Below, one piece after another: positions 21,794-28,809 of a stretch of DNA of 64,000 nucleotides (positions are counted from its first letter, which is position 1; the number at the start of each line of letters is the position of its first letter). The notes beneath the pieces are model-generated. The model was not told the DNA's origin, ran no database searches, and worked only from the letters and a program-made list of their open reading frames with translations. Source of the DNA: Taibaiella koreensis (GTDB taxonomy: Bacteria > Bacteroidota > Bacteroidia > Chitinophagales > Chitinophagaceae); the NCBI RefSeq assembly GCF_003545715.1, contig NZ_QVNU01000001.1:744001-808000 (forward strand), in the 5' to 3' direction. A program made the translations under genes and the position numbers.

Positions 21794-22933
21794 TTATTTC
21801 AGAACAGTACGGCTGATCACGATCTTTTGTACCTCGCTGGTACCTTCGTAGATCTGGGTAATCTTCGCGTCGCGCATCAGGCGTTCTACGTGGAATTCTT
21901 TTACATAACCGTAGCCACCATGGATCTGTACCGCTTCGTTGGTCACGCTCTGGGCGATCTCGGAGGCGTACAACTTGGCCATGGAGCCTGCCAGCGTATA
22001 ATCCTGGCCCTGGTCTTTCAGCCATGCGGCCTTAAGACACAGCAGGCGGGCAGTCTCGATCTGGGTAGCCATATCGGCCAGCTTGAAGGCCACGGCCTGG
22101 TGGTTCATGATCTCGGTGCCGAAGGCTTTACGTTCCTTGGAATACTTAAGCGCCAGCTCGTAAGCACCGCTGGCAATACCCAATGCCTGGGATGCGATGC
22201 CGATACGGCCACCGCCCAGGGTTTTCATCGCAAAGTTGAAGCCGAAGCCATCTTCGCCTATGCGGTTTTCCTTAGGCACTTTTACATCCTGGAAAGAAAT
22301 GCTGTGCGTATCGCTGCCGCGGATACCCAGCTTGTTCTCTTTTGCGCCCACAGTAACGCCCGGAGTGTTCTTATCCACGATAAAGGCGTTGATGCCTTTG
22401 TGCTTCTTGGCAACATCGGTTTGGGCAATAACGAGATAAGTAGAAGCGGAATTTCCGTTGGTGATCCAATTCTTGATCCCATTTAGTATGTAGTGGTCGC
22501 CTTTGTCCTCAGCAGTTGTCCTTTGAGAAGTAGCATCGGAGCCAGCTTCGGGTTCGCTCAGCAGGAAAGCGCCGATCAGCTGGCCGGAAGCCAGGGGCAC
22601 CAGGTATTTTTGTTTTTGTTCTTCTGTTCCGTAGGTTTCGAGACCCCAGCATACCAGGGAGTTGTTTACGCTCATTACTACCGAAGCCGAAGCATCCACT
22701 TTGGATATCTCTTCCATTGCCAGCACATAAGATATGGCATCCATTCCCGAACCGCCGTATTTAGGATCTACCATCATACCCAGGAAACCCAGTTCGCCCA
22801 GCTTCTTGATCTGTTCGGCGGGGAATTTCTGATGCTCGTCACGCTCGATCACGCCGGGCAGAAGCTCATTTTGGGCGAAATCGCGGGCAGCCTTCTGTAC
22901 GGCCAGTTGTTCTTCGGAAAGTTGAAAGTTCAT
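21794..22933 (-). CDS. Acyl-CoA dehydrogenase
   Basis: 379 residues, typical of short/medium-chain acyl-CoA dehydrogenases. These FAD enzymes form the alpha-beta double bond in the first step of beta-oxidation or amino-acid-derived acyl-CoA breakdown. LLSEPEAGSDA and GIKNWITNG belong to the FAD/substrate beta-domain. IHGGYGYVKEFHVERLMRDA and the catalytic base Glu363 in QIYEGTSEVQ are near the C-terminus, the position used by short-chain and butyryl-CoA dehydrogenases. It is monocistronic with its own promoter and terminator. Confidence 0.95.
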   Translation of the reverse strand: MNFQLSEEQLAVQKAARDFAQNELLPGVIERDEHQKFPAEQIKKLGELGFLGMMVDPKYGGSGMDAISYVLAMEEISKVDASASVVMSVNNSLVCWGLETYGTEEQKQKYLVPLASGQLIGAFLLSEPEAGSDATSQRTTAEDKGDHYILNGIKNWITNGNSASTYLVIAQTDVAKKHKGINAFIVDKNTPGVTVGAKENKLGIRGSDTHSISFQDVKVPKENRIGEDGFGFNFAMKTLGGGRIGIASQALGIASGAYELALKYSKERKAFGTEIMNHQAVAFKLADMATQIETARLLCLKAAWLKDQGQDYTLAGSMAKLYASEIAQSVTNEAVQIHGGYGYVKEFHVERLMRDAKITQIYEGTSEVQKIVISRTVLK

Positions 22934-22971
22934 AAACAGGTTAAGTTTTAGACAAATAGTCAGACAGGGTG

Positions 22972-23002
22972 CAAAAATAATTTTTTACCCGGTATCCGCA
23001 AA
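22972..23002 (-). promoter_or_regulatory. Promoter of acyl-CoA dehydrogenase
   Basis: On the minus strand TTTG (23002-22999), 19 bases, then TATTTTTG (22979-22972): exact consensus, with a leader of about 35 bases. Confidence 0.75.
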
Positions 23003-23083
23003 TTGTCTTTGAGCCCTTTAGTAAAATTGTGAAGCCCGGTATGGAATCGGCGACGCGATAGCATCTTATTTTAAAATGACGTT

Positions 23084-23311
23084 ATGAAAATACCCGCAGC
23101 CCTTTTACACACCCTGAGCCTGGCCCTCCTGGCCAGCGCCTGCCAGAGCAGTCCTGCCGGAAAGCAGCCCGAAGCGCAGGTTGGCCAGATCGTCCGTGAT
23201 TCCGTTACCCGGCTCCCGGCCCCGGTCGATACCCCACAGCTAAGCAACGGTCTCCGGCAGCAAATTTTGCCCGGGGAAGGCGACAATTGTCCTCCCTGCG
23301 GCAGGGGATGA
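23084..23311 (+). CDS. Putative MNIO-associated RiPP precursor 1 (lipoprotein-type leader, CPPCGRG tail)
   Basis: 75 residues. The N-terminus is a signal peptide with a lipobox-like LASAC (Cys at residue 20), then a low-complexity Pro/Gln linker, and the C-terminus ends GDNCPPCGRG. The C-terminal motif NCPxCGxG is shared with the next peptide (23399) and nothing else in the window. Together with the DUF692/MNIO gene downstream this marks it as a candidate substrate whose terminal cysteines are modified. The distance to the next peptide gene is 87 bases with a short GTCTATATAGAC palindrome. MNIO precursors with Sec-type leaders are known from bufferins; the assignment here is inference from context and motif. 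Confidence 0.65.
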   Translation: MKIPAALLHTLSLALLASACQSSPAGKQPEAQVGQIVRDSVTRLPAPVDTPQLSNGLRQQILPGEGDNCPPCGRG

Positions 23312-23398
23312 AAAAAATAGGAGCAGCTTCTAAGAATCGTCTCCGGTTGCACGTCTATATAGACAGGAACTGTATCATTCATCACTAAAGACAAAATC

Positions 23399-23599
23399 AT
23401 GAAGGTCTCGAAAGCATTACTAGGCGCCATACTGGTGGGGATTACCGTGCAAACCGCAGCAACTTCCTGCAGCAAAAAGGAAACAAATCGCATTACACCC
23501 CAAACCGGCGCCCAAGCCGGGGAGCAGGTACAGCCGCCACATTCCAACCCGGAACCACCACAACCCGGTGGCAATTGTCCCGGTTGTGGTATGGGATAA
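23399..23599 (+). CDS. Putative MNIO-associated RiPP precursor 2 (lipoprotein-type leader, CPGCGMG tail)
   Basis: 66 residues. The layout matches precursor 1: a signal peptide (LLGAILVGITVQTAATSC, Cys at 24), a Lys/Gln/Pro-rich spacer and the C-terminal end PGGNCPGCGMG. Position and motif suggest that the two cysteines in CPGC are the substrate of the MNIO enzyme that starts 35 bases after the stop codon. The frame was confirmed by the stop immediately after the CGMG end and by A-rich sequence before the ATG. It may be retained as a lipoprotein or cleaved so that only the tail is released. Confidence 0.7.
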   Translation: MKVSKALLGAILVGITVQTAATSCSKKETNRITPQTGAQAGEQVQPPHSNPEPPQPGGNCPGCGMG

Positions 23600-23634
23600 A
23601 GAAGTATATTACAGAACAGCTATCGACTAACAGA

Positions 23635-24774
23635 ATGGAATACGAACCACTAAGATCAACTATTGCGTGTAACCTGGATGCCGGCATTTTGTCGGCATCT
23701 TTACCTTTATTTGAGGAAGCTCGCGTGGAGGCGATCGAGTGGGCGTTCGATACCCTGTTCCGGCTGGAAACCATTCCTGTATGGTTTGAAGAGCTATTGG
23801 AGGCCTTTAGTAAGGAAAAGCGGCTTATCGGGCATGGGGTGTTCTTTTCCCTGTTTTCGGGGCGCTGGCAGCCGGAGCAGCAGCGCTGGCTCGATCAATT
23901 ACGGACACTTTGCCGGAAATACCATTTCGATCATATTACGGAACATTTCGGCTTCATGACAGGGGCCGATTTCCATCATGGCGCACCGCTGGGCATTCCT
24001 TTTACGGCCGAAACGCTCGCGCTGGGTCGCGACCGCCTCGCCCGCATTTACGATGCCTGCCAATGCCCGGTGGGCCTGGAGAACCTGGCCTTTTCCTATT
24101 CACTGGAAGAAGTGGAGCGGCACGGCGCCTTCCTCGAAGAGCTGCTGCAGCCACTGAACGGTTTTATCATACTCGATCTCCATAACCTGTATTGCCAGCT
24201 GCATAATTTTTCCCTGGACTTCGATACGCTCATTAAGCGCTATCCCCTGCACCGGGTAAGAGAGATCCACATTTCGGGTGGTAGCTGGGAGCCTTCGGCT
24301 TTATTTGAAGGTAAATCTGTGCGCCGGGATACGCACGACGATACCGTGCCTGAAGAGGTGTTTGTGCTCCTCGAAAAAACGATTCCCCTTTGTCCTTGTC
24401 TTAAATATGTGGTGATGGAGCAATTGGGTACCGGCCTGGCGACGGAGCCCAGCAGACAGGCATTCCGCAACGACTTTATACGCATGCAGCAGATCGTATC
24501 GGCCGCCACGGCACAGCCCGCTGCCTTCCTGCCGGAGGCCTTTTTACCACCTGATATCCTGCCGGCCGGCCCTGTAGTGGAATCAGCAACACTGCATAAC
24601 CAGCAGCTAGAACTGTCGGCGATACTGGAGAGCAGCGCCGGCTATGAAGATGCGCGCCAAAGGCTGGCTCATTCTTCTCTCGCCGGTACCGGTTGGCAGG
24701 TAGAGGCATGGCAGCCGCACATGCTCGAAACAGCAGTACACATCGCGCAGAAATGGCGTAAGAAAAATACTTAA
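23635..24774 (+). CDS. DUF692 / MNIO family multinuclear iron oxidase
   Basis: 379 residues from the ATG at 23635 (a TTG start at 23575 would overlap precursor 2). The TIM-barrel MNIO signature is clear in order: GHGVF (His67), DHITEHFGF (His100, Glu103, His104), PVGLENLAF (Glu149, Asn150), ILDLHNLYCQLHN (Asp181, His183, Asn184), REIHISGGSW (His212), RRDTHDDTVPEEVF (Asp232, His234) and VVMEQLG (Glu262). These correspond to iron ligands in MbnB, TglH and bufferin-type enzymes, which oxidise cysteines in peptide substrates to oxazolone/thioamide, thiazole or related groups. About 100 C-terminal residues beyond the barrel (from about 280) form an extension that may replace the separate partner protein other MNIO enzymes need. 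No other maturation gene is adjacent. Confidence 0.88.
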   Translation: MEYEPLRSTIACNLDAGILSASLPLFEEARVEAIEWAFDTLFRLETIPVWFEELLEAFSKEKRLIGHGVFFSLFSGRWQPEQQRWLDQLRTLCRKYHFDHITEHFGFMTGADFHHGAPLGIPFTAETLALGRDRLARIYDACQCPVGLENLAFSYSLEEVERHGAFLEELLQPLNGFIILDLHNLYCQLHNFSLDFDTLIKRYPLHRVREIHISGGSWEPSALFEGKSVRRDTHDDTVPEEVFVLLEKTIPLCPCLKYVVMEQLGTGLATEPSRQAFRNDFIRMQQIVSAATAQPAAFLPEAFLPPDILPAGPVVESATLHNQQLELSAILESSAGYEDARQRLAHSSLAGTGWQVEAWQPHMLETAVHIAQKWRKKNT

Positions 24775-25234
24775 AATAGGGCACCTAAGCCGTAAAGCAG
24801 TATCTACAGCGGTATCCGGCATGACGATAGTGTTTCGTGTTTTGATATGAAGCCTGTCTAAAATACATCAGTCCGGAATACAATACCTCAGCCCTATAAC
24901 TGTATAATAAGCCTGGGTGCGTGGCTACCCCAAAATAGTGGAGCATTATTTTGGGTCTCCTTTTTGCGTTACTTTTTGGAGCAGCAGAAAGTAACAAAGT
25001 CCACACTGGCTCCAGGTAATCGGTGTGTTTTATAGCCAGCAGTACCCTTCACTGCACAAGCCGTGCATTTTCTTAATAGAATGACAATACGAATACCGCT
25101 TTGTGAGCGGGTTTCCCGCAGCGTCGCCTCGGGAAAATAATCTTGCCCTACGATCTGGCGGTATAGGATCGTCAGTAATTAACGGGTTGAAAGATTGTTT
25201 GCGATTCTCTGTGCGTGCGGATAGTCAGACCACT
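24775..25234. other. Intergenic region of about 460 bases, no gene recognised
   Basis: Between the MNIO gene and the convergent beta-barrel gene I see no convincing reading frame, hairpin terminator or RNA gene. The stretch around 24900-25010 (TTTTTGCGTTACTTTTTGGA and neighbourhood) looks like decayed interspersed sequence, but I cannot prove it is a repeat. Confidence 0.4.
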
Positions 25235-25966
25235 TTAAAAAAAACGTTCGGCTACCAGGCCGTAGGTAAACAATATATTTTCCCGCTGTGTGCGGCTTAC
25301 ATTGTTATAGGTAAAGGTTGTGGTAAAGCTAAGCCATTTCCATATTTTGATCCCCAGGCTGGCATTGGCCATAATGATGAAATCCCCGCCATAATTGAGT
25401 GAAGGCTGGTAAAAGCCTGCGCTGTTGAAGGTAAGCAGCTCCTTGTACTGGAAACGGTACTGGATCCTTAACGAGTTGCGGAAAGTATAATAGCCCAGCT
25501 CCGATTGGTCTTCCTGGATGATATTGCTGCGCTCGTACAAAAGACCATCGCTGATGCTCAGCATCATCTTCTGCCGGTCAATAAGCCGGTAGGCCGCACC
25601 CAGCCCGGCTTGCATCTGCTCGTTTATTTTAAGAGAAAAGCTGGACGTAAAGTTGACCAGACCCCAATAATAAAAATGCGGGAAAGTCTTGTACAAATTA
25701 AAGTCCAGCGCCGTGGTAAAATCGTTATTGGTCAGCCTGCCGGGCGTATTGCCATAGATCCAGGAAGTCGTCGAGTTCATCACAAACCTTTGCTTTCTTA
25801 TGCTGTATTTCACACCGTTATTCAGCAGGTAGGTCAGGCCATCGGCCGTGCGGTTAAAGGTACCCGACGAAGAGATATTGATCATATGGTGCACCGAGTC
25901 GCTAAACTGCGCGCGGGCGGCAAAGGGTAGGAGGCAATAACAGATCAGGTAAAGGTAACGGGCCAT
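25235..25966 (-). CDS. Outer-membrane beta-barrel protein (DUF481-like)
   Basis: 243 residues from the ATG at 25966, chosen because it starts a signal peptide (MARYLYLICYCLLPFAARAQ). The mature protein alternates polar and aromatic residues as in small outer-membrane barrels (FPHFYYWGLVNFTSSFSLKI, RIQYRFQYKELLTFNSAGFY) and ends in AERFF, a C-terminal aromatic typical of outer-membrane insertion. The pattern is like DUF481 proteins, salt-stress-associated barrels of unknown function. Its start lies about 85 bases from the stop of the archaemetzincin-like gene and the two may be co-transcribed. Confidence 0.65.
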   Translation of the reverse strand: MARYLYLICYCLLPFAARAQFSDSVHHMINISSSGTFNRTADGLTYLLNNGVKYSIRKQRFVMNSTTSWIYGNTPGRLTNNDFTTALDFNLYKTFPHFYYWGLVNFTSSFSLKINEQMQAGLGAAYRLIDRQKMMLSISDGLLYERSNIIQEDQSELGYYTFRNSLRIQYRFQYKELLTFNSAGFYQPSLNYGGDFIIMANASLGIKIWKWLSFTTTFTYNNVSRTQRENILFTYGLVAERFF

Positions 25967-26975: not shown

Positions 26976-27713
26976 TCAGCGATCTTTTTTCCGGAAAGGC
27001 TTGGTAAGACGGTACCAAAGGCCTTCAGGTTTTTCTATATCGGGCCGGCCATACATCATTACTTCATCTATCTCATTACTGTCTCTTTGTTTCATCCGGA
27101 TAGTTAAGTAAGCCTTGTCGTCGGTTACGCTGATTAGTGTATCCTGCATGGCAAGGGCACGGATGACGAGTGATACCGGCTGCCGTTGGGGAACGGGGAT
27201 TTCAAGCCTGAAATGCCCATCGTTATCCGTCATTGTGCTGGTTTGAGTATGCTCCAGTATCACAATAGCGCCGGGGCTAGCCTCTCCGTTGTCGTCCAGC
27301 ACCTGTCCCCTGATCCTTATGGTATCTGTGGATGCTATTGGCGTGCTTGTTTGCCCGCCTTTATCATAACCGGGATGTTGCTCCATCTGGTTTGTCTGTC
27401 CGTAAGTTCTCGTAGCAATGCCGGCCAGCCCCAGGAAGGCGGCTGCGACATATTTGCTGCCGGTCCGGAGCCAGGCAGGCATGGAGTACTTTTTCGTATC
27501 CAGCGGCAAGGACAATTGATGGGCGGTGAAACGGCCGCAGGGCAAATCGGGCGCTTTTTGGAAATAAGCAGTGAATTCGGCATCGCTGTAAGCACTGAAG
27601 TCGATTACCGTTTTCTGGCAAGCGCTGCAGAAGCGGCCGCAGGATACGGGTTGCATAGTGTTCCAGTCTTCGGTGCACGGGGCGGGTAGGGATAGTTGTT
27701 TACGTCTCTTCAT
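26976..27713 (-). CDS. Cys-motif membrane protein with carboxypeptidase-D-like domain (paralog A)
   Basis: 245 residues from the ATG at 27713. The N-terminal about 65 residues hold PCTEDWNTMQPVSCGRFCSACQKTVIDFSAYSD and, later, CGRF: five cysteines in a compact pattern also seen in the paralog at 27886. A single hydrophobic helix (about 85-100) separates this, probably cytoplasmic, part from a periplasmic carboxypeptidase-regulatory-like beta domain (IRIRGQVLDDNGEASPGAIV, residues about 130-200) that ends in a short basic tail (LTKPFRKKDR). The Cys-rich domain is a recurrent but unassigned Bacteroidota element. It precedes the archaemetzincin-like gene by 4 bases and follows its paralog. Confidence 0.55.
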   Translation of the reverse strand: MKRRKQLSLPAPCTEDWNTMQPVSCGRFCSACQKTVIDFSAYSDAEFTAYFQKAPDLPCGRFTAHQLSLPLDTKKYSMPAWLRTGSKYVAAAFLGLAGIATRTYGQTNQMEQHPGYDKGGQTSTPIASTDTIRIRGQVLDDNGEASPGAIVILEHTQTSTMTDNDGHFRLEIPVPQRQPVSLVIRALAMQDTLISVTDDKAYLTIRMKQRDSNEIDEVMMYGRPDIEKPEGLWYRLTKPFRKKDR

Positions 27714-27885
27714 GGGAATAGGTTTGCTACTGATAATACACGCTTCCCTATTCATCGTACTATAGAAGTGATCAGCATTACTGATCGGAGCGTCGCCACT
27801 TTGCGGCTGAACAAATCGTTCCGTTTCCCTTTTCCTGAACGGGGATAGAAAAACCGGTTTACTTTTAAGGCAGGAAATTGATTGG

Positions 27886-28809
27886 TTACTGTCGGTATTT
27901 TTTCCGGAAAGACCTGGTCAGGCGCCGCCACAATGAAGGTTTTTCGGTCTTTGCGATCACCACGCCGTTAATAGCACGGGTGCCATATAATGCTGTTGCT
28001 TCGGCTGGCATCAGCTTTCTGACAATGTGCACAGAGGGCGCCAATCCCGCCAGACCGTCAGCATAGGGTTGTCCATCAAGAATGACGAAGGGGTTGGGTG
28101 TGGGCATCGCTCTTGGCGCAATGGCGCTGTAAGGTATAGTCGATACACTGCCCATGATCATTTTAGGGTTCAGCGGCAGACCCTGTACCACTACTTCTTT
28201 CAGTTCGTTGCTGAGAGAGGCAAGCTGCACCGTCAAGGCCCTGTCTGTACAGGATACTTTTCGGGTCAGTGTTATTTGGCCTGCTGCGCTAAAGATGAGA
28301 ACACCTTCATTGGTGTCAAGGGTTATGGAGAAGTAACCTTCCGCATCGCTTACGGTGGTGTTGTTTGTCCCTTCGATCTGTATGGCCGCACCGGGCAGGG
28401 CATCGCCGGCTTCATCTACGACGGTGCCATACAGGGTCGTGGGAAAGCAAGTTGTGCGCGATACCGGTGTTTGCTGTTGCGATTGCGCTGTCGAAGGCGC
28501 GGCCTGCAGTGTTAAGGGCAGCAAGCCCATAAAGGCATACCGCAATGTTTTGTGCCAGGGTTTGCCGGCAGGCGGTCGTTGTGCCTGTTGCAACGGAATT
28601 TCCAGCCATAGCTGGTGCGGGCTGAACCGGCCGCAAATGCCGGTACGGTCTGCACTAAAATACCGGATAAAGGCGTCGTCGGAAAATGTGCTAAAATCGA
28701 TTACGGTCTTGCTGCAGGCACCGCAGAATTGGCCGCAGCCATCGGGCTGCATCTGTTCCCAATCTTCAGAACAGGGTTCCGGCAGGGCCACACGATGGGT
28801 CGTCTTCAT
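27886..28809 (-). CDS. Cys-motif membrane protein with carboxypeptidase-D-like and plug-like domains (paralog B)
   Basis: 307 residues. It has the same N-terminal motif as paralog A (PCSEDWEQMQPDGCGQFCGACSKTVIDFS, then CGRFSPHQL), a membrane helix at about 90-110, a carboxypeptidase-D-like domain (LYGTVVDEAGDALPGAAIQI) and, unlike A, a TonB-plug-like stretch (TPNPFVILDGQPY and ATALYGTRAINGVVIAKTEK). The plug-like part without a barrel resembles SusC-type N-termini and is probably a signalling or binding module. The C-terminus is basic (RRLTRSFRKKYRQ) like paralog A, which points to an old tandem duplication. Confidence 0.55.
   Translation of the reverse strand: MKTTHRVALPEPCSEDWEQMQPDGCGQFCGACSKTVIDFSTFSDDAFIRYFSADRTGICGRFSPHQLWLEIPLQQAQRPPAGKPWHKTLRYAFMGLLPLTLQAAPSTAQSQQQTPVSRTTCFPTTLYGTVVDEAGDALPGAAIQIEGTNNTTVSDAEGYFSITLDTNEGVLIFSAAGQITLTRKVSCTDRALTVQLASLSNELKEVVVQGLPLNPKMIMGSVSTIPYSAIAPRAMPTPNPFVILDGQPYADGLAGLAPSVHIVRKLMPAEATALYGTRAINGVVIAKTEKPSLWRRLTRSFRKKYRQ

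Follow-up and report, generated by a model that had tools for sequence, protein, structure and literature searches.

A probable chryseobasin-like DAG-RiPP locus of Taibaiella koreensis with an arginine-tailed companion precursor and a hairpin within the MNIO gene

Introduction

Chryseobasin-like peptides of the DybAH/ChsAH type, termed "DAG-RiPPs" in a 2025 preprint (PMC12636315), have been characterised in Dyadobacter, Chitinophaga and Hymenobacter. As described in the main text of that preprint, these systems consist of a CPxCGxG precursor and a ChrH-type MNIO that carries a C-terminal helical domain, a feature of the ChrH subfamily, and that requires no partner. The MNIO converts CPxCGxG into a macrocycle plus a hydantoin (−4 Da). 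The precursor acquires its lipids through the lipoprotein pathway, DybA being a triacylated lipopeptide. DybH alone suffices, acts on the seven-residue C-terminus and accepts CPPCGMG, and ChsH and HymH (CPGCGLG) likewise give −4 Da upon co-expression. Chryseobasin itself is encoded by ChrA/ChrH of Chryseobacterium (PMC10214503; family models NF050124 and NF050165), and ChrA is of the SPI type (PMC12636315, main text). Bufferins and BufB also involve the MNIO superfamily; according to the accessible text of PMC12452194, bufferins are exported by Sec and some are predicted to be lipidated.

Here we analyse a locus in a 64,000-nucleotide stretch of Taibaiella koreensis DNA (contig NZ_QVNU01000001.1, positions 744,001 to 808,000; hereafter the window). 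The locus is very probably a chryseobasin-like DAG-RiPP system whose chemistry and lipidation follow those of its relatives, with precursor A1 as a probable companion peptide and with a hairpin that is a candidate attenuator. As in DybA/DybH, ChsA/ChsH and HymA/HymH, a CPxCGxG precursor, here with a lipobox-like signal, lies upstream of a ChrH-type MNIO in a minimal locus with no partner; unlike these systems as presented in the main text (PMC12636315), the window has two precursors, one of them with Arg at position x and Pro-Pro in the prospective ring, and a stem-loop that covers the first part of the MNIO gene. Because DybAH and ChsAH share the arrangement, the locus belongs to a kind already described, and the compact variant proposed from the sequence-only reading of the window is not a new design.

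Results

Layout of the locus

An ORF check placed three genes in the order A1, A2 and MNIO exactly where the sequence-only reading had put them, both small genes with NCPxCGxG ends, and 35 bases separating the stop of A2 from the MNIO ATG at 23635. The features are as follows.

23084..23311, forward strand: precursor A1, 75 amino acids, ending DNCPPCGRG; companion (Arg) type
23084-23143, forward strand: lipobox-like signal of A1 to Cys20, by sequence
23288..23311, forward strand: CPPCGRG-stop core of A1, by pattern search
23399..23599, forward strand: precursor A2, 66 amino acids, ending GNCPGCGMG; canonical type
23399-23470, forward strand: lipobox-like signal of A2 to Cys24, by sequence
23576..23599, forward strand: CPGCGMG-stop core of A2, by pattern search
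23635..24774, forward strand: ChrH/DybH-type MNIO, 379 amino acids (PF05114, NF050165, AlphaFold2, Foldseek)
23635..24510, forward strand: TIM-barrel catalytic domain, MNIO residues 1-292, from the secondary structure of the AlphaFold2 model
23676..23700, forward strand: stem-loop in MNIO codons 14-22 with T-rich tail, candidate attenuator (terminator scan, folding)
24586..24762, forward strand: C-terminal helical domain, MNIO residues 318-376 (model helices; NF050165 match to residue 375)

A longer, TTG-started MNIO frame from 23575 is present as well; full-length matches of relatives start at residues 4-9 of the ATG protein. The locus is flanked upstream by an acyl-CoA dehydrogenase gene and downstream by genes for a DUF481 protein and an M54-like peptidase, all on the opposite strand (Pfam). 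A scan for sigma-70-type promoters returned two sites against 2.2 expected. A match to a Bacteroidota-type promoter with zero mismatches, TTG-N19-TANNTTTG, one of two in the window, lies at 22972-23001 (−); it points away from the RiPP genes, toward the acyl-CoA dehydrogenase. Farther downstream, 26976-27755 (−) and 27886-28809 (−) encode adjacent similar proteins with a CarboxypepD_reg domain and Cys-containing N-terminal segments, CGRFCSACQKTVIDFS and GCGQFCGACSKTVIDFS.

The enzyme is of the ChrH type

The MNIO matched Pfam PF05114 (MbnB_TglH_ChrH) with 106.7 bits (1.6e-30; threshold 25), which assigns it to the superfamily. It aligned nearly full length, C-terminal domain included, to the ChrH model NF050165 with 367.3 bits over residues 14-375, a score under the 600-bit equivalog cut-off that sets it apart from ChrH proper while core motif and enzyme subfamily are shared with chryseobasin. 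The BufB model NF050167 gave 88.4 bits (cut-off 310), the HvfB model 76.5 bits and the ApyH model 30.4 bits; membership of the bufferins or methanobactins was rejected in view of these NCBIfam scores, and with it the bufferin type mentioned in the sequence-only reading. The locus also differs from bufferins/BufB in its core and in having no partner-type protein encoded by the five Pfam-scanned flanking genes.

An AlphaFold2 model built on a 33-row alignment (mean pLDDT 90.1) showed a TIM barrel followed by C-terminal helices (318-333, 337-345 and 361-376) which, together with the NF050165 match, identify a fused C-terminal helical domain. The first seven Foldseek hits in the PDB were TglH (8hci/8hi7), the DUF692 protein 3bww and MbnB chains. 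Residues H67, E103, H104, E149, N150, D181, H183, N184, H212, D232, H234, D235 and E262 were invariant in the 33 rows.

A second MNIO of the same genome (G000:C10:721054-721674, L002) is located some 23 kb upstream of where the window begins; its 207-residue matched part scored best with BufB, at 167 bits (cut-off 310). The enzyme found in family f7 (L044 / L081, genome G435) sits in a frame of 292 residues close to the beginning of a contig. Of the 363 positions of the ChrH model it matched only 1-289, so the C-terminal domain of this enzyme may be missing or encoded separately.

Precursors and enzyme occur together

Both precursors end in the CPxCGxG core, CPPCGRG in A1 and CPGCGMG in A2, and both carry a lipobox-like motif, LASAC and AATSC, read by eye and with a regular expression. 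Position −3 of a lipobox is usually Leu; it is Ala in both. Searched against precursor families, the two peptides that had been read as joint MNIO substrates parted: A2 matched NF050125 (ChrA_rel_RiPP) with 75.5 bits (cut-off 40), and A1 fell below both NF050125 (12.4 bits) and the ChrA model NF050124 (20.5 bits; cut-off 50). The CPxCGxG-stop pattern TGYCCNNNNTGYGGNNNNGGNTRR had two matches in the 5.94 Mb genome, both at the RiPP locus, with none in the reversed control, which is not a chance outcome.

The peptide and the enzyme travel together, as had been expected of a genuine pair. Across 394 genomes of the family, with the enzyme called at E<=1e-20 in 26, CPxCGMG-stop was found 29 times in 25 genomes, with no control match in the table; 27 of the 29 matches, in 23 of the 25 genomes, adjoined a ChrH-type MNIO. 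The two others were a G270 precursor that lies at the edge of its contig and a TGG-ended match judged to be chance (G233). Three of the 26 enzyme genomes had no exact CPxCGMG: G149 has CLACGMG, G252 has CPACGQG, and in G162, where the enzyme match is partial, no precursor was seen. Each enzyme genome had one ChrH-type match, the two of G357 being pieces of one gene. Among 114 genomes sampled from f7 there was one enzyme; among 395 sampled from the phylum there were six at E<=1e-60, with none in 14 control genomes. This co-conservation bears out the proposal of an MNIO RiPP locus whose precursors, of lipoprotein type as judged by sequence, end in a core with two Cys.

Precursor arrays and the arginine companion

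We compared 76 loci, comprising 26 from the family of the window, 40 from family f2 of the same order, seven on named contigs, two from f4 (both passing the ChrH cut-off) and one from f7; locus L012, a 25-residue match, was left out. Precursor counts cover a pattern in which the two Cys, the two Gly and the stop were fixed, and since the upstream reach was 155 to 3000 bases, arrays may be undercounted. One precursor was present at 60 loci and two or three at 14, and none was in reach at two (G162 and G435, both with partial enzyme matches). Met occupied position x in 76 of all 91 precursors. At single-precursor loci x was Met (54), Leu (5) or Gln (1), and in the 31 array precursors Met (22), Arg (7) or Leu (2).

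All seven CGRG precursors were array members, one per locus and always with a CGMG or CGLG neighbour; none occurred at the 60 single-precursor loci, and a probability of 1.9e-6 for this pattern ignores relatedness and was set aside. The carriers are G000 (the genome of the window) and G174 in genus g1, G125, G239 and G279 in genus g31, and G1005 and G1055 in f2, so that the Arg core occurs in two families of the order. In six of the seven, the CGRG precursor is the upstream-most gene of the array. Three of the seven have no Cys at residues 15-34 and look SPI-type by eye, against three of 82 other precursors (two of the 91, with incomplete sequence, were omitted from this count); lipidation is therefore not universal among these companions. 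A looser CGRG pattern matched 11 times in the 26 enzyme genomes, five times at the locus and six elsewhere, against three in the control. The Pro that follows the first Cys is not fully conserved, given precursors ending CGPCGMG, CITCGRG, CLDCGRG and CLACGMG; in the CGPCGMG ends, seen at L101 and L103, the Pro has moved by one position.

In the genus of the window, four of four genomes carry the enzyme next to one and the same acyl-CoA dehydrogenase, with 96-99% identity, and a downstream lipoamide dehydrogenase is common to three of them, not including G101. The site holds one precursor in G101, two in G000 and G001, and three in G174. G001 and G174 have, in the position of A1, a gene with a leader similar to that of A1; as the upstream gene of G001 ends CPACGMG, Arg is not fixed there. 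Across the arrays of g1 and g31, eight of nine non-proximal precursors stayed below the 40 bits that NF050125 requires (12.4 for A1, 16.9-37.7 for the remaining seven), and the ninth, the middle gene of G174, passed with 72.1 bits.

These data bear on whether A1 is simply a decaying duplicate of A2, its CGRG core a product of drift that is modified poorly or not at all. A1-type genes do diverge faster (36% identity between G000 and G001, against 75% for A2), A1 misses both precursor models, precursor number varies from one to three within one genus, and the fixed Cys, Gly and stop of the search pattern would have kept any decayed copies out of the count. Yet x was free in that pattern and array precursors nevertheless show only Met, Arg and Leu there, the Arg core recurs in two families, and the CGRG frames are intact and keep export-type signals. 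We consider decay unlikely and favour A1 as a companion precursor. CGRG genes occur in g1, g31 and two f2 genomes; with 16 of 30 inner branches of the MNIO tree open (bootstrap not settled), a single and a multiple origin of these genes both agree with the tree. A search for enzyme residues that track the Arg core gave one weak and unconvincing column, C/N in the five carriers, with N common in non-carriers too.

The second, arginine-tailed precursor and the precursor arrays look new with respect to the literature found. Neither an Arg core nor multi-precursor loci were found in the main text of PMC12636315, although its supplements may list the latter, and the CGRG in the accessible text of PMC13097082 is unrelated. 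We found no demonstration of CGRG-core modification in the accessible literature on these peptides; modification of the A1 core is our proposal.

A conserved stem-loop inside the MNIO gene

A terminator scan picked out the stem-loop at 23676-23700, which spans 25 bases and precedes TTACCTTTAT; the 2.4 kb scanned contained seven terminator-like sites against 3.0 expected. The fold of 43 bases reached −17 kcal/mol, and none of 200 shuffles was as stable, whereas a 121-base stretch taken as a whole did not stand out (z −1.24), 23 of 200 shuffles being as stable. Rfam gave no match at gathering scores within 22900-25300.

The region was compared at 70 of the 76 loci, the six whose first enzyme hit started past residue 12 being dropped. 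The mean energy was −5.16 against −3.40 (sd 0.24) in synonymous shuffles, and none of 200 shuffled sets reached the observed value. Most of this excess came from the nine loci of the two genera g1 and g31 (−8.2 kcal/mol relative to control, against −0.84 over the same segment at the other 61), in which the stem-loop is the largest deviation in the 600 bases scanned. All seven inner pairs, G-U counted, form in eight of these nine loci, more weakly in G239 (−12.5), and are absent from G101; elsewhere no locus forms all seven and four form six. A subfamily-wide element was accordingly rejected, the hairpin being confined to those eight of 70 loci and the 61 loci outside the two genera showing only a weak excess with differing hairpins.

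We interpret the stem-loop as a cis-acting RNA element, most probably a partial terminator by which enzyme output would be lowered, and as a candidate attenuator. It could instead be a DNA operator or a coding coincidence, a reading we regard as possible though not the favoured one. In favour of this alternative, the stem-loop forms a nearly perfect palindrome where the encoded protein is conserved (NLDAxxLSASLPL); it is lacking in G101, a member of the same genus, and is not general across the 70 loci; moreover, when partners were slid by −3, 19 of the 70 loci still formed five pairs. Against it stand the synonymous codons: for identical residues, g1 (without G101) and g31 use the same codon in 81% of comparisons at codons 12-21, the highest window of the gene, against 43% gene-wide. 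Likewise, the outer pair of the stem is G-U, G-C or A-U in different relatives. The 9-nt-loop form of the palindrome, searched in six hairpin genomes (without G192 and G239), occurs only at the locus in five (G000, G001, G031, G125 and G279) and has one other copy in G174, which speaks against an operator shared by many genes. A conserved hairpin within the enzyme gene looks new relative to the literature found, as far as its accessible text goes.

Neighbouring genes and the metal question

Among the five flanking genes, Pfam detected no partner protein, no ChrI-, ChrE- or ChrP-like gene, which distinguishes the locus from ChrA/ChrH, and no metal transporter or regulator, one product being a putative metallopeptidase. 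By analogy with DybH and ChsH, S-methylation is not expected. In 22 loci no neighbour family other than the enzyme spanned more than three genera.

The products might bind copper or another metal, as methanobactins, oxazolins and bufferins do, which had been raised as a possibility from the sequence. The DybAH product has a free thiol (PMC12636315, main text), Met is the commonest residue at x, and C-x3-C-x3-H occurs in the linker of some related precursors. That motif, however, is not in the locus of the window, Arg replaces Met in A1, neither the five flanks nor any widespread neighbour supplies a metal gene, and the main text of PMC12636315 leaves the function of these peptides open. Metal binding thus finds no support here and we judge it quite unlikely.

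The C-x3-C-x3-H motif (for example CGEECDIDH) was present in 15 of 49 precursors of f2 and a Saprospiraceae MAG and in none of 42 others, with one more in L115. The loci are L009, L042, L082-L085, L087, L094, L097, L100, L107, L108 and L116. It is a possible metal site, of which no mention was found in the main text of PMC12636315.

Discussion

On the preferred reading, a DAG-RiPP locus with a companion precursor, A1 and A2 would both be made in the cytoplasm, where the single ChrH-type MNIO, with no partner, would bind the C-terminal CPxCGxG. By four-electron oxidation (−4 Da) it would form a Cys-Cys thioether macrocycle and a hydantoin from the carbonyl of the second Cys and the next two amide nitrogens. 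Export by Sec, transfer of diacylglycerol to the lipobox Cys by Lgt and cleavage by LspA would then yield envelope lipopeptides. As judged from the characterised relatives, the two peptides are probably membrane-anchored and their tails probably ringed by one iron enzyme. A2 would give the ordinary Met-bearing product and A1 a companion with Arg beside the hydantoin and Pro-Pro within the ring, while the stem-loop, lying early in the MNIO gene, probably reduces expression of the enzyme relative to its precursors. The layout, the co-conservation, the enzyme subfamily, the arrays and the conservation of the hairpin are what the present analysis shows; chemistry and lipidation are carried over from the characterised relatives, and modification of the Arg core and attenuation are proposals for which we found no precedent.

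A stronger version, in which one MNIO serves a deliberate pair, a Met-hydantoin lipopeptide and an Arg-hydantoin companion with two-component-like action and with the enzyme dose set by the stem-loop, seems doubtful to us; under it the Arg companion would be soluble in those relatives where it has no lipid anchor.

Met and Arg precursors under one enzyme, with export signals that differ in some relatives, constitute natural experiments that would address the role of the residue beside the hydantoin and that of the lipid anchor. Should the hairpin prove to attenuate, it would illustrate how the ratio of substrate to enzyme is set in a RiPP operon almost without spacers.
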